Assembly: GCF_041381155.1 (NCBI RefSeq)
Contig: NC_091134.1
Coordinates: 2,538,001-2,602,000 of the forward strand
Direction of reading: 5' to 3'
Origin: Argopecten irradians
Lineage: Eukaryota; Mollusca; Bivalvia; Pectinida; Pectinidae
DNA length: 64,000 nucleotides
Within the stretch, counting starts at the first letter, position 1. Every line of letters begins with the position of its first letter. The notes under the pieces were generated by a model. It saw only the letters and a program-made list of their open reading frames with translations. It was not told where the DNA came from and did no database searches. Made by a program: the position numbers and the translations under genes. Below, in pieces: positions 28,462 to 55,400 of the stretch.

Positions 28462-31400
28462 CTACGTACCAAGCGTTGAGACATTATTACACCTGTACTA
28501 ATTACTGTATTAATACACTTTTACTGAATTACTAAATTATTGCATCTGTTCTTAATTACCGTACTTACCTTTACCTATCTTATAAGAAAATTAACACAAT
28601 TTCCAATCAGACAAGTTTTGTATTTAAGATATATACCAGCACCACCGAACACATTACCACTAAACCATACCACCAAATACAATTGACGTTTCAGCCATTT
28701 CTGTTATCTGTTCTTGAGATGAAGTTTTTGAGTGTGATTGTATCACATTAGCTGGATTTACTAGGTAATATCACTAACTCGACCACCCAAAATTTCTCCT
28801 TAAACATGATAACTAGTAACACTAGTAGTAGTAACGTGAAAAGAATAAGTATTACTGAATTCAAAAGTTAAATTTTGTTAAAACAAAGAAATTTAACATG
28901 GTTACCAAATAATTTACTGAGATGGAAAGACACCATACCACTAGATTCTGTAAACAGATAATGATGAGCCCAAGGTCTGTTTAGATAGACTCGAGAGTCT
29001 TACAATATACCAAGTAAAGGCAGAGGTGTTACACAGAATGAGACTTGCCTGGTGTAGAAGCGGGTGACCGATGAGAGGGACTAGGAAGTGGAGCCGACTG
29101 GAGCTGTTTGATACTCTGTGTCAGAGAAACGGGTATCTGTCCTGTAACACAACAAATATTCCTGTAATCAACTGTTCTTACAGAGATTATAATACACAAG
29201 TATCTGTCCTGTAACACAACAAATATTCCTGTAATCAACTGTTCTACATCTGTTCTTACAGAGATTGTAATACACAAGTATCTGTCCTGTAACACAACAA
29301 ATATTCCTGTAATCAACTGTTCTACATCTGTTCTTACAGAGATTGTAATACACAAGTATCTGTCCTGTTGCACAACAAATATTCCTGTAATCAACTGTTC
29401 TACATCAGTCCTTACAGAGATTGTAATACACAAGTATCTGTCCATCATCTGTTTGACATCTCTTCTTACAGAGATTGTAATACACAAATATCTGTCCTGT
29501 TGCACAACAAATATTCCTGTAATCAACTGTTCTACATCAGTCCTTACAGAGATTGTAATACACAAGTATCTGTCCATCATCTGTTTGACATCTCTTCTTA
29601 CAGAGATTGTAATACACAAATATCTGTCCTGTTACACAACAAATATTCCTGTAATCAACTATTCTAGGTCTGTTCTATTTACAATTCTTAGAGATTGTAA
29701 TACACAAGTATCTGTTTAATCTGCAACCAAAAACCAACTATTTTTTCCAGCAACATTCATATTTTCTAAAGTCACGTCCTGAACAGTCAGATTTTTGTCT
29801 CTAAATCCTGAAAACTACCATGAGATCAGATCATATTGTTAAGGTATTGATAATGCTTTATTATGATAACCTGGGTTTCAGAAAGTAAATACAAACAAAA
29901 AAGACCTCTAATGTTTTCTTTCTACTTATACATACATATAGTTAATGATTTGGTGCGGATGTAGTACCGGGTGATCACGAGTTTTTGTGCGGAAAACCGG
30001 TTCTAATAAATTTGAAAATGCATTTAATATCGTATTATGGATGAACTAAATTAGCATCACTTCTTACAACAATTACATCATTGGAGCTGGTGCCCCTGAA
30101 AATAATTTTGAATATAATGAAAATACTAACCACATACATAGTAGAAAACAAGGAGATTTAAGTGCTGAAAAAGAATATGAGTGTGCAACTCCACCAGGAC
30201 TGTCATACAGTGAAACTTTTCTAATCCAGACCCTTTACACACTGAATTCATGTTTGATTCGTTTTCACACTTAACATATTATCAGAAAAACAGTCTATTC
30301 TGGAAAGAAATATTGGCTTTTCATTCACGTTTGGTTTAGATATATTTCACTGTAGCATGCAAGTTCTTTTATACGAAAACAGTGTCAACTAAATACAGAC
30401 AAAAGCACTTGATCCTGCCATCTTGAATCATCAGCATCAACAAAAAGAAATTAAGAAAGCAACAAGAACAGCCAAAATGAAAATGGGACTTTTTTCATAA
30501 AATTTGCGGAGTACAATGTTGTGAACTTGCAAAACCATGAATAACAAAGAAAGAGCTCAATGCCCACATCTTCCAAAAAGTAGAAATATTTATTTATTTT
30601 CTAAGCATCATTTTGCTGCATAGTTAATCAATCTGTTCTTCACTAAATTCTTCGTTCATTTACTTCATTCTTTCCTCATTCCTTTTTAACTTTTAGAGCA
30701 CCAACTATTATTTGATAAAATAAGCAAGTTTTCCAGAGGAAGAAAAAAACTAAAACCAACATTGACATTAAAAAAAGCAACCAAAACAATGATGGCTCTG
30801 ATGTAAGTAAGAAGCAGCAGTTATAACATCTGCACACATGCTGCGATACCAAGAAACAAAAATTTGTGTGTTGCTTTGTCCCGATTGGTTAGCCAGGCTC
30901 GGTAACCATGGCACCAGACATACCGCTCTGACTCAAGATGGCTGACATTGTTGTGCTTAAATCGTGCTGCCCCGGTAGGTTGGGGAGCAGTGGAAATCCT
31001 AGCGGCCCTGTAAAGCAAGTAGGGGTCAGATATAGAAATATTTGTTGTTAAAAAGATCATCAATGTTAAGTAGAAAGAGAGGGAGGGGGGTATTAGTTTA
31101 TGGTAAATATACTGTAGAAATATATTAATTGAACCTGAAGAGGTAAAAGAGGAAAGTACTTTAGAAGGTATGGAATATGGGCTAATGTAAGATATTTTAA
31201 TATGTCAAGGTTAATGTTCTATGATCATGGATAAATATTTTCAGATTGCTTTTTTTAAGCAAGTAAATATACATTTTGAGAAATAAAGATACTTTTCAGT
31301 GATATAAAGACAATTTTTTTTTTAATTTTACTCTATCAGAAAGTAGCCATATGACTGAAGATTAGAAGATGATCATATCTACCACGCAAGGTTCTAGATC

Positions 31401-52400: not shown

Positions 52401-55400
52401 TATAAACCCAAACAAATCATTTAACTAAACCCAAACAAATGATAACTCACCCTCCTGTAAAAACAAAATCATTTATATAAACCCAAACAAATGATAACTC
52501 ACCCTCATGTAACAACAAAATCATTTAACTAAACCCAAACAAATGATAACTCACCCTCCTGTAAAAACCAAATCATTTATATCAACCCAAACAAATGATA
52601 ATACTCTCTAAAACAACCAAAATCATTTATATAAACCCAAACAAATGATTAATACTCTCTAAAACAACCAAAATCATTTAAATAAACCCAAACAAATGAT
52701 AAACAAACACATCTAAACAAAAATCTTTATAAATAAAAACAATCACGACAGATGAAATAACAAAACCATGGATCATTTACAACTGAACTTCCACCAACTC
52801 TGACTCAGATAACTAGGAGAACTTGTATCATTCAAAGCAATTTGTTTCCAACCATTAGTTTCATATACATTTATAGTAAACCAGTTTTTCAGATAATACT
52901 TGTTATAATGCAATGTCTTTATCCTATGAATTTTGTTCAGGACATACTGTTCTGATTTTATAACTCATTAGTTGACACAGTAATAATATCCTGCTAATCT
53001 TACACAATGGGGGCAGCTCCATTTTCCCTCTGGTGCCTCCTCTAGCTCTGGATCCAGACAGACGAGATGGTAAGCTCGCGGACAGGTGTCACACAGAATG
53101 ATCTCACCGCCCTGCTGACAGACTTCACAGTAGTCCTGATGGTCCGTCTGGAGTAATACATCAGAAAATTAATCAAAGTTTCACAACACCTATCCATATC
53201 ATTGACAGTAAAACTGATAAATATCTCATCACTTCATTATGATTTTGAATCATAATGAATAAATCAAGATCTTCAATCTTAATGAACAGCTTTACACATA
53301 TTACAATAAAGTCAACTTTTACATCACGTTGGCAATACTTGACAACGCTAAATTGTACCATTCTTAAGGAAAATGATTTCTCGATAATTTCACCAAGGTG
53401 TAGCATCGTAAAGAAGTCAGTGATTTTTCAGGGTATTATGGGAAAAAAGTTTTTGTAACAAATTGGGAATTTTTAATCGTGAAAAGAGCAGTTTTGGGGG
53501 AAAATTACCCATTACTGAACATTGTATAATAGGTGATTAGATATTGTAAAACTATAAACTATTTCATTTTATCAAAAGGTGATGACCATAACTACAGTTT
53601 CAGAGTAGTTTGTTATTAGATTAAACAACGAAGGGAGAGATTTCTGGGTTTTATTTGTTTTTCAGTGATTTGAGTTGGGAATTTTTCATTGTGTTTGGCA
53701 TTGGGAATGTGTCGGGGGGGGGGGGTTTGGCATTGGGAATGGGTTCGGTAACGACCCCAATTATATAGGGAGAAAAAGTCACTGGAAGTCTATAGAAATA
53801 TGTATATTTTTCTCAACTACAATTTTTAATCTAGAGTTTCCAGACCTCATAGCCTTCTGCATCTGGATCATTGGGAAACTTGTTGGTAGTCTTGGTCTTT
53901 TTCTTTCCTCCCCTGCCACGCCCCTTCTTTGTCTTAGTTTTGCGCTTTGGAGCCGGCTCTGCTTCCTTTGCAGCCTCCTGTAGCAGGGAAGCTTCCTCCA
54001 ATTGTCGCTCAAATTCCTCGTCACTTGTGTTGAAGGCAGCGTCATCATCCTAGAATAGAAGGTAAATAAGCCATTGACTAAAAAAGACAGAGAGAATTAT
54101 TTGGACTGGTGATGTGAACGTCAACGTTAATTAAAGTCAGGTTATATTATAAGGATCAATAACAGTTGCTCCAGCACACTTTAAACCTGTTCAATGAAAA
54201 TCATGATCTATATTTACCTAAATCTTAAAGTTACACCCTAAAAGATCCTATCGCCATAGTCACAGAGAACAGTTCTGAATAATGTTACACTATTGAGAAC
54301 AACAAACTAACCGAGGCATTTTTCTTAGTTTTCTTCTTCTTCTTGTTGATTTTTATCTTCAGGGGAGCTACAGTTTTCTTAGACTTTGACTTCTTTTTGG
54401 GTTTTTCTTCCAAAGGAGCTTCATCCTGTGGCTCAGTATCCTCGTCACCTGAAACAGTACAGAACATTTCTCAGAGCAATCCACAGTAAAACATTCTAAA
54501 GGCATTTCACAATATCGAAGTAATAACAACATATCATTAGATGTCCAGAGTAATTAATCAGATTAGAAAATATGAGAATCTTGCAATCTGATTTCAGTGT
54601 TTTTCCTGGGTATTTTGGGAAATTGCCACCTGGTGAAAATTGGGATTTTTTGTGCGATAAAAGTAGGCAATGAAAAATTTAACAGTGTTTATGGAAATTT
54701 TCGAAAAGGTAGAAATAGACAATTATGCTTTTCTAAGAATCAAGTATAAGAATGGATACTAAAATACGACGTTCAGACTTGGGATTTCCGTAATATCACA
54801 GGATTTTGAGAATTTTAATCATTTTGTGAAGTTTAATTGGATCTAATCCATGATGGACTCATATTAACTTTGAATAAGAAAGAAGAGAACATTTTCTCAC
54901 CATTATCTTTCAGAGAATCGTCTATATTATCATCTCTGTCTGAATCATCTCTTTCCTCTCTCTCCTTCACCGGTTCTGCAGCCTTCTCCTTTGGTGGTGC
55001 ACTCGTACTCCCAGTTGATTCTCGTGTTTTGTTTCGAGCTGCAACTAGCTGGGCAAACTCCCTCCACTTTGCCCCAATCAACGTGACCATCTTGGCCATT
55101 GGCACCTTTGGGTTGGCCTTCTGTATAAGTGGCTGAACATGTTGTTTGAACAACTTGTAGTTATTCAGTGTGGTGAAATCATCATCGTCGTATTCAATGT
55201 CAATGTTATTGATGCCAAGATCATCTGCTATGATATCTGAAGGACTCTTCTTTTCCTGTAAGTGTGAAGAGATCAATCAAATACCACAAATGTAAACAAT
55301 GAAATCACAAACAATAAAATCACAGACAATGGTTGTAACTTTGATAGACAAATATAACATAATATAAATTAGGCTATTTGACTTGCTTCAAAACTTGTAG

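Follow-up and report, generated by a model that had tools for sequence, protein, structure and literature searches.

Minisatellites that span exon-intron boundaries are known as mirages, a name coined for the Adh3 gene of amphioxus (PMC3087553), and further lancelet mirages were later described in the globin genes BflGb6 and BflGb9, in troponin C and in PGBD5 (PMC3087553, PMC3902484). According to the accessible parts of these two reports, the mRNA is spliced normally across lancelet mirages, and the Adh3 array additionally displays somatic length instability. This work describes four tandem arrays of comparable architecture in the Mi-2/CHD4 gene of the scallop Argopecten irradians, located in a window of 64,000 nucleotides (contig NC_091134.1, positions 2,538,001 to 2,602,000), and relates them to 28 regions elsewhere in the same assembly. 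The arrays are probably mirages that arose by neutral tandem duplication in array-rich introns, are subject to ordinary repeat turnover and are tolerated by splicing.

As in the lancelet mirages, the repeat unit combines sequence from the exon and the intron side of the junction, in the four Mi-2 arrays as well as in seven cases from other genes that were read as sequence, and most copies retain the AG or GT (123 of 127 copies over 15 junctions, pooled from Mi-2 and the other genes). Since the unit spans the junction and the splice signals are kept, the scallop arrays are classed as mirages. They differ from the amphioxus cases in that four occur in a single gene, with up to ~64 copies, in that a background rate was measured, and in that they are known here from DNA alone. 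The literature matches listed contain no mollusc mirage; the cases found among them come from two lancelet papers, and the term also appears once in a paper on birds (PMC5714495). An intronic minisatellite of abalone TSSK1 was considered as a parallel and discarded, as its array is not placed at a junction in the accessible text of the source (PMC6905558).

Two other described systems share features with these arrays. In intron gain by tandem genomic duplication the duplicated segment likewise carries splice signals, but according to the available excerpts (PMC4974935, PMC2891723, PMC2812944) a new intron is created, whereas the scallop arrays reside in introns that, in our gene model, already separate conserved exons. 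Intronic minisatellites have also been reported to influence splicing away from junctions, namely in intron 6 of human TERT (PMC3948165) and in introns of C. elegans (PMC4039745). These are tandem repeats within introns too; in the consulted part of the TERT report, however, the repeats lie >1 kb from the exon junctions, whereas the scallop unit contains the junction itself.

Four arrays at exon edges of Mi-2

The minus-strand gene in the window is Mi-2/CHD4, represented by 37 exons in a hand-curated model. Exons were predicted with a dynamic-programming gene finder (codon usage and splice scores) that was trained on evident exons, and the result was curated by hand. The best match of the helicase stretch of the product is CHD4 of PDB 6ryr (E 1.4e-104), followed by CHD1 (4.9e-61), and CHDNT, PHD and Chromo domains are present in the N-terminal part. 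The CHD4 domains are conserved in the predicted exons when the arrays are left out. Between 35 and 57 kb, 28 finder exons equal the curated model except for one edge and two exons were missed, an agreement that is not independent because the curated model was built from the same scoring.

Four tandem arrays each overlap an exon edge, and their units hold 9 to ~20 exon bases together with the splice site. The arrays, located with Tandem Repeats Finder (TRF) and by reading of the units, and the exons concerned are:

29133..29720, minus strand: array A1, 78/54-bp units with the acceptor and the first 9 bases of exon 29049-29141 (TRF, unit reading)
29049..29141, minus strand: exon with its acceptor copied in A1 (sequence, acceptor score)
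42296..45042, minus strand: array A2, ~64 copies of a 42-bp unit with the last ~15 bases and the donor of exon 45027-45192 (TRF, unit reading)
45027..45192, minus strand: helicase-region exon with its donor copied in A2 (TRF, gene model)
47719..48957, minus strand: array A3, ~23 copies of a 55-bp unit with the last ~20 bases and the donor of exon 48938-49049 (TRF, unit reading)
48938..49049, minus strand: exon with its donor copied in A3 (gene model)
51908..52710, minus strand: array A4, ~16 copies of a 51-53-bp unit with the acceptor and the first ~11 bases of exon 51741-51917 (TRF, unit reading)
51741..51917, minus strand: PHD-finger exon with its acceptor copied in A4 (gene model, domain search)

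The exon edges inside the arrays are, in the gene model, the acceptors at 29141 and 51917 and the donors at 45027 and 48938. The TRF spans are 29133-29443 and 29312-29666 for A1, 42296-45042 for A2, 47750-48957 for A3 and 51908-52701 for A4; the end of A1 was extended by eye to ~29720 and A3 was extended in the same way to start from 47719. Wrap-around alignment gives copy numbers of ~8 for A1, ~64 for A2, ~23 for A3 and ~16 for A4. Read on the coding strand, with a slash at the authentic junction, the unit of A1 is TTTGTTGTGTTACAG/GACAGATAC (acceptor, first 9 exon bases), that of A2 is CCTACTGCCGCTAAT/GTAAGTCATG (donor, last ~15 exon bases with one mismatch), that of A3 is CTAACTTCCCTACCACAGAT/GTAAGTAC (donor, last ~20 exon bases with mismatches) and that of A4 is TTTGTTTATTACAG/GAGGGCGAGGG (acceptor, first ~11 exon bases).

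The sites scoring >1.5, the real one counted, amount to 13 acceptors in A1 (of which 6 are exon-type), 59 donors in A2, 18 donors and 13 acceptors in A3, and 11 acceptors and 5 donors in A4. An earlier note on this DNA had placed the arrays within ~30 bp of the TRF positions, and the coding-strand reading of all four agrees with what it said about unit content, adjacency to the exon and the side (donor or acceptor) that is copied. Its expectation that each of the four places would offer tens of competing sites applies fully to the 59 donors of A2 only, and its remark that it knew of no named system of this kind is superseded by the amphioxus mirages, which already carried that name in the accessible text of their reports (PMC3087553, PMC3902484).

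Three observations concern the interior of individual arrays. Recursive splice sites, or ratchet points, consist of an acceptor fused directly to a donor (AG/GT). The A3 consensus unit resembles them in joining a branch-site-like TACTAAC and an acceptor-like CCCTACCACAG to the donor GTAAGT, but recursive splicing in A3 was rejected, as the units read CACAG/AT/GTAAGT, with two bases between acceptor and donor. Some A4 units (52120-52123, 52451-52454, 52555-52558) have a donor four bases after the acceptor, ACAG/GAGG/GTGAGT, a pairing that led the unconstrained gene finder to call four-base micro-exons there. A2 departs from its consensus by 59 deleted and 120 inserted letters in 2747 bp, some of them homopolymer-like, and its single-base insertions and deletions resemble unpolished long-read errors within a repeat.

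Junction copies in other genes and deeper in introns

A sample outside Mi-2 was collected from the assembly, which holds 82 myosin exon matches and 58 SNF2-family exon matches, the latter including exons of Mi-2 itself. The 28 regions (L005-L032), 9-10 kb each and 278,766 bp in total, were chosen by hand, 20 from the myosin matches and 8 of 20 chosen from the SNF2 matches, and thus represent two gene families only. The predicted exons of a muscle myosin gene in one of them, L007, align with the bay scallop entries PDB 1dfk and 1dfl with no mismatch other than at the ends of joined stretches and at residues lacking where the predicted exons omit them, so that the DNA probably comes from a bay scallop or a very close relative and not from amphioxus. 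Exons were predicted on the strand of the gene, and 181 of the 204 predicted were kept (coding score >2, less than half inside an array). Each edge was represented by 12 exon and 18 intron bases, and a copy was defined as 25/30 identities within 1.5 kb.

A local junction copy was found at 11/359 edges in the other genes and at 4/73 edges in Mi-2 (Fisher P 0.30, binomial P 0.19). Three of these 11 edges have a single copy (L017; L019 at 9245; L028 at 2049). With at least two copies the counts are 8/359 and 4/73 (P 0.13), or 7/357 in the other genes (P 0.098 against Mi-2) when L023 is left out, whose spanning 'exon' is doubtful because repeats also occur on its exon side. Among exons overlapping a Pfam domain, 5/122 edges have a copy, including the doubtful one of L023. 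When the windows were compared with 3 kb of another region as a control, 0/432 junction windows and 1/2276 intron windows matched, so the local junction matches are not due to chance. Mirages accordingly extend from lancelets to ~2 to 4 per 100 exon edges in the sampled scallop genes, and a background rate is available before function is read into any single case.

Seven junction arrays of the other genes were read as sequence. At donors, a myosin exon of L019 ends in ..GCATGGGAAATG/gtgagt (54-bp units), L028 reads ..GGGCGAGAAAAAG/gtaagg (33-bp units) and L029 reads ..CTGAAATCTAAACAG/gtgagt (56-bp units). The acceptor of L024 reads gtttatgttgtag/GAGAACAGC (56-bp units), and the units measure 37 bp in L022, 59 bp in L026 and 49 bp in L030 (acceptor).

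For the strength of the copied sites, only copies with at least 25/30 identity within 1.5 kb were counted, each scored as the best of ±3 positions. The GT or AG is kept in 5/5 copies of A1, 22/22 of A2, 12/13 of A3 and 2/2 of A4. Over the 15 pooled junctions, 104 of the 127 copies equal or exceed the score of the real site, and all copies do so in A2 (22), L019 at 5873 (11), L028 at 9416 (14) and L029 (13). Site strength alone therefore cannot explain which site is chosen. The transcript offers many near-identical sites at known spacing (~60 donors in A2), which makes it suited to studying the choice made by the spliceosome.

Pooled with Mi-2, junction windows are copied in 15/432 cases (3.5%), as against 7-12% of the windows located 100-400 bp into the intron. 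Copies were found for 25/429 intronic windows at 60 bp (P 0.11 against junctions), 30/423 at 100 bp (P 0.021), 32/409 at 150 bp, 31/392 at 200 bp, 33/346 at 300 bp and 33/277 at 400 bp (P 0.00002), and for 0/152 and 0/35 exon middles. When at least two copies are required, the counts are 12/432 for junctions and 19/429, 21/423, 21/409, 22/392, 27/346 and 27/277 for introns at 60, 100, 150, 200, 300 and 400 bp. Intronic windows being copied more often than junctions, the latter are not preferred, and a junction excess is absent in this sample. Of the 278,766 bp sampled, 14% is occupied by arrays, and both in Mi-2 and in the 20 myosin regions (98 of the 110 exons used) TRF coverage climbs into the introns.

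The two intron ends were also compared, with P values uncorrected across ten offsets. Copies were found for 11/214 donor-side and 2/217 acceptor-side windows starting 10 bp into the intron (P 0.011), and for 13/212 and 3/217 of those starting at 20 bp (P 0.010); the contrast has P 0.052 at 5 bp, is absent from 30 bp onward and has P >0.05 at 8/10 offsets. At the junction itself, the pooled counts are 11/215 donors and 4/217 acceptors (P 0.071), those of the other genes only are 9/179 and 2/180 (P 0.035; 8/178 and 2/179 without L023, P 0.061), and the contrast is weaker with at least two copies (8/215 and 4/217). Close to the splice site (within ~20 bp), arrays thus seem less frequent at acceptors than at donors, which we regard as a weak lead.

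Origin of the arrays and competing explanations

A mirage of this kind would begin as a tandem duplication in which the duplicated unit, by accident, extended across the border between exon and intron. Given the anatomy of such a duplication, the copies would come to lie on the intron side and the exon would stay whole. The array could then lengthen through repeat turnover, by slippage and unequal exchange, and the copy abutting the exon would be the site used, while the other copies would be present in the primary transcript and be spliced out as part of the intron. That the proximal site is used is suggested by the conserved exon ends and by the available passages on lancelets, which report undisturbed mRNA (PMC3087553, PMC3902484). 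That arrays occur at junctions at all is, in this explanation, due to the introns of this genome being full of tandem arrays, and not to an attraction of the junction or a function of the copies. Among the possibilities listed in the earlier note, simple neutral slippage is the best supported. Its argument that chance could hardly account for four arrays in a single gene did not hold up against the sample (4/73 and 11/359 edges, with intronic windows copied more often than junctions): over the 28 regions and Mi-2, exon-abutting arrays occur as often as they would if placed at random, an outcome that the note itself had named as a refutation.

Placement was also simulated in Mi-2 alone, for 19 arrays obtained by merging TRF rows by hand and extending two ends by eye. 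Five of them span an edge (one being a 27-bp duplication inside an exon) and four end within 25 bp of an exon. Random placement with unlimited exon overlap yields a mean of 6.8 edge-spanning arrays against the 5 observed (P 0.93); the mean falls to 3.0 (P 0.16) when the overlap is limited to at most 60 bp and to 1.7 (P 0.024) at most 30 bp. These P values are borderline and post hoc, the window having been picked because of its arrays, and the tests are superseded by the sample from other genes.

Several points weigh against the neutral explanation. Normal splicing at the arrays is assumed, and the exons are our own gene-finder predictions rather than cDNA-derived. The junction-copy rate of Mi-2 is nominally above that of the other genes, yet not clearly different. 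In the placement tests, arrays ending near an exon gave P 0.047, and when the 17 intronic arrays of Mi-2 were each collapsed to one unit and placed in their own intron, 1.4 were expected (P 0.042 for at least four). With at least two copies, the deficit at junctions is significant only against windows at 300 and 400 bp (P 0.0016 and 0.0001), whereas P lies between 0.05 and 0.2 for windows at 60-200 bp. Not every copy is as strong as the real site, whose score is reached by 2/5 copies in A1, 10/13 in A3, 5/8 in L022, 14/26 in L023, 0/1 in L019 (9245) and 0/1 in L028 (2049). Finally, the arrays that span a junction exceed the remaining ones in length: the median is 553 bp for 9 arrays as against 105.5 bp for 108 (P 0.0007), and 475 as against 151 bp when only periods of 20-200 are considered (P 0.015). 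Simple random seeding does not predict this.

This difference in length, together with the fact that the four longest intronic arrays of Mi-2 are the four junction arrays, would fit junctions acting as expansion hotspots, where pausing, R-loops or nucleosome edges start or grow arrays. Arrays are nevertheless less frequent at junctions than deep in introns, and the length gap may be partly due to detection, as the match rule favours long arrays, so that hotspots appear unlikely. An assembly artefact, in which the arrays or their internal variation are long-read consensus errors, deserves very little credence: the indels of A2 are of the kind seen where repeats are poorly polished, a neighbouring 2-kb duplication with near-identical copies is possibly an unmerged second haplotype, and one lancelet mirage was misassembled in a draft according to the accessible part of its report (PMC3087553), but several separate loci display clean, regular arrays of the same architecture, and the excerpts on the lancelet cases mention support by resequencing or RT-PCR (PMC3087553, PMC3902484).

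For the functions raised in the earlier note (splicing buffering, decoy binding and array-driven isoforms) no positive evidence was obtained. Isoforms would arise if distal A2 donors (42 bp, or 14 codons) or upstream A1 acceptors (78/54 bp) added in-frame repeat peptides to Mi-2. The frame is open for 66 codons from the A2 donor, more than four units, A1 lies in an open frame of ~490 bp continuous with its exon, and the A2 copies score like the real site in 22/22 cases. On the other hand, the units of A3 (55 bp) and A4 (51-53 bp) would disrupt the reading frame, read-through of A3 runs into a stop within 19 codons whichever frame is used, the donor-array spacings show no frame bias, being divisible by 3 no more than by chance (4/11, the A3 unit taken as 55), and insertions in the conserved helicase region at A2 would hardly be harmless; we consider array-driven isoforms very improbable. 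The idea that an array recruits U1 snRNP or U2AF and thereby strengthens, slows or protects the authentic junction seems hardly more credible than an artefact. Real sites with copies score 3.23 (n=15) against 2.43 without (n=412, P 0.026), a gap that could mean either that strong sites tolerate arrays or that arrays help them, and that is biased by weaker predicted exons in the comparison group. Moreover, junctions have no excess of copies, and the splice columns are not visibly better kept than the other columns of the unit on inspection of the alignment, without a statistic.

Under the neutral explanation, copies at donors would be close to neutral and arrays at acceptors would be selected against. 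The contrast between intron ends would be expected if selection acted on the polypyrimidine tract and disfavoured acceptor copies upstream. We tentatively extend this to a proposal that we rate as possible, though doubtful: a few percent of the junctions of this genome may be mirages under selection that differs between the two intron ends, with donor copies near-neutral and acceptor-reaching arrays purged. Extra downstream donors would have almost no effect on fitness, as the donor next to the exon would prevail over tens of identical sites, either by being transcribed earlier or by being set through exon definition; acceptor-reaching arrays would be eliminated, since splicing would join to the upstream copies before the real site. 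If selection does differ in this way, mirages constitute a natural, genome-wide experiment on splice-site choice.

Further features of the Mi-2 locus

The apparent donor of exon 29049-29141 (positions 29040-29052) reads CAG/GCAAGT, and the intron that follows is therefore likely of the GC-AG type. At the acceptor end of exon 45027-45192, 27 bp are perfectly duplicated in tandem (45136-45194). The helicase region would thereby gain nine residues and contain KYYKYILTR twice, unless the second AG serves as the splice site.

A tandem duplication of ~2 kb lies within Mi-2, its copies at 30286-32300 and 32456-34423 sharing 96.8% identity, with 14 mismatches and 51 gap letters in an alignment of 2017 columns. 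Both copies contain one and the same exon of 121 codons without any difference (31750-32112 and 33873-34235), and the duplication is either recent or an unmerged second haplotype. Both copies also contain a 27-bp array (31369-31699, 12.3 copies; 33575-33822, 9.2 copies) that begins ~50 bp 3' of the exon donor, so that the donor lies outside the array and no junction is spanned. Downstream of the last predicted Mi-2 exon, a 40-bp array of ~42 copies occupies 23647-25350.

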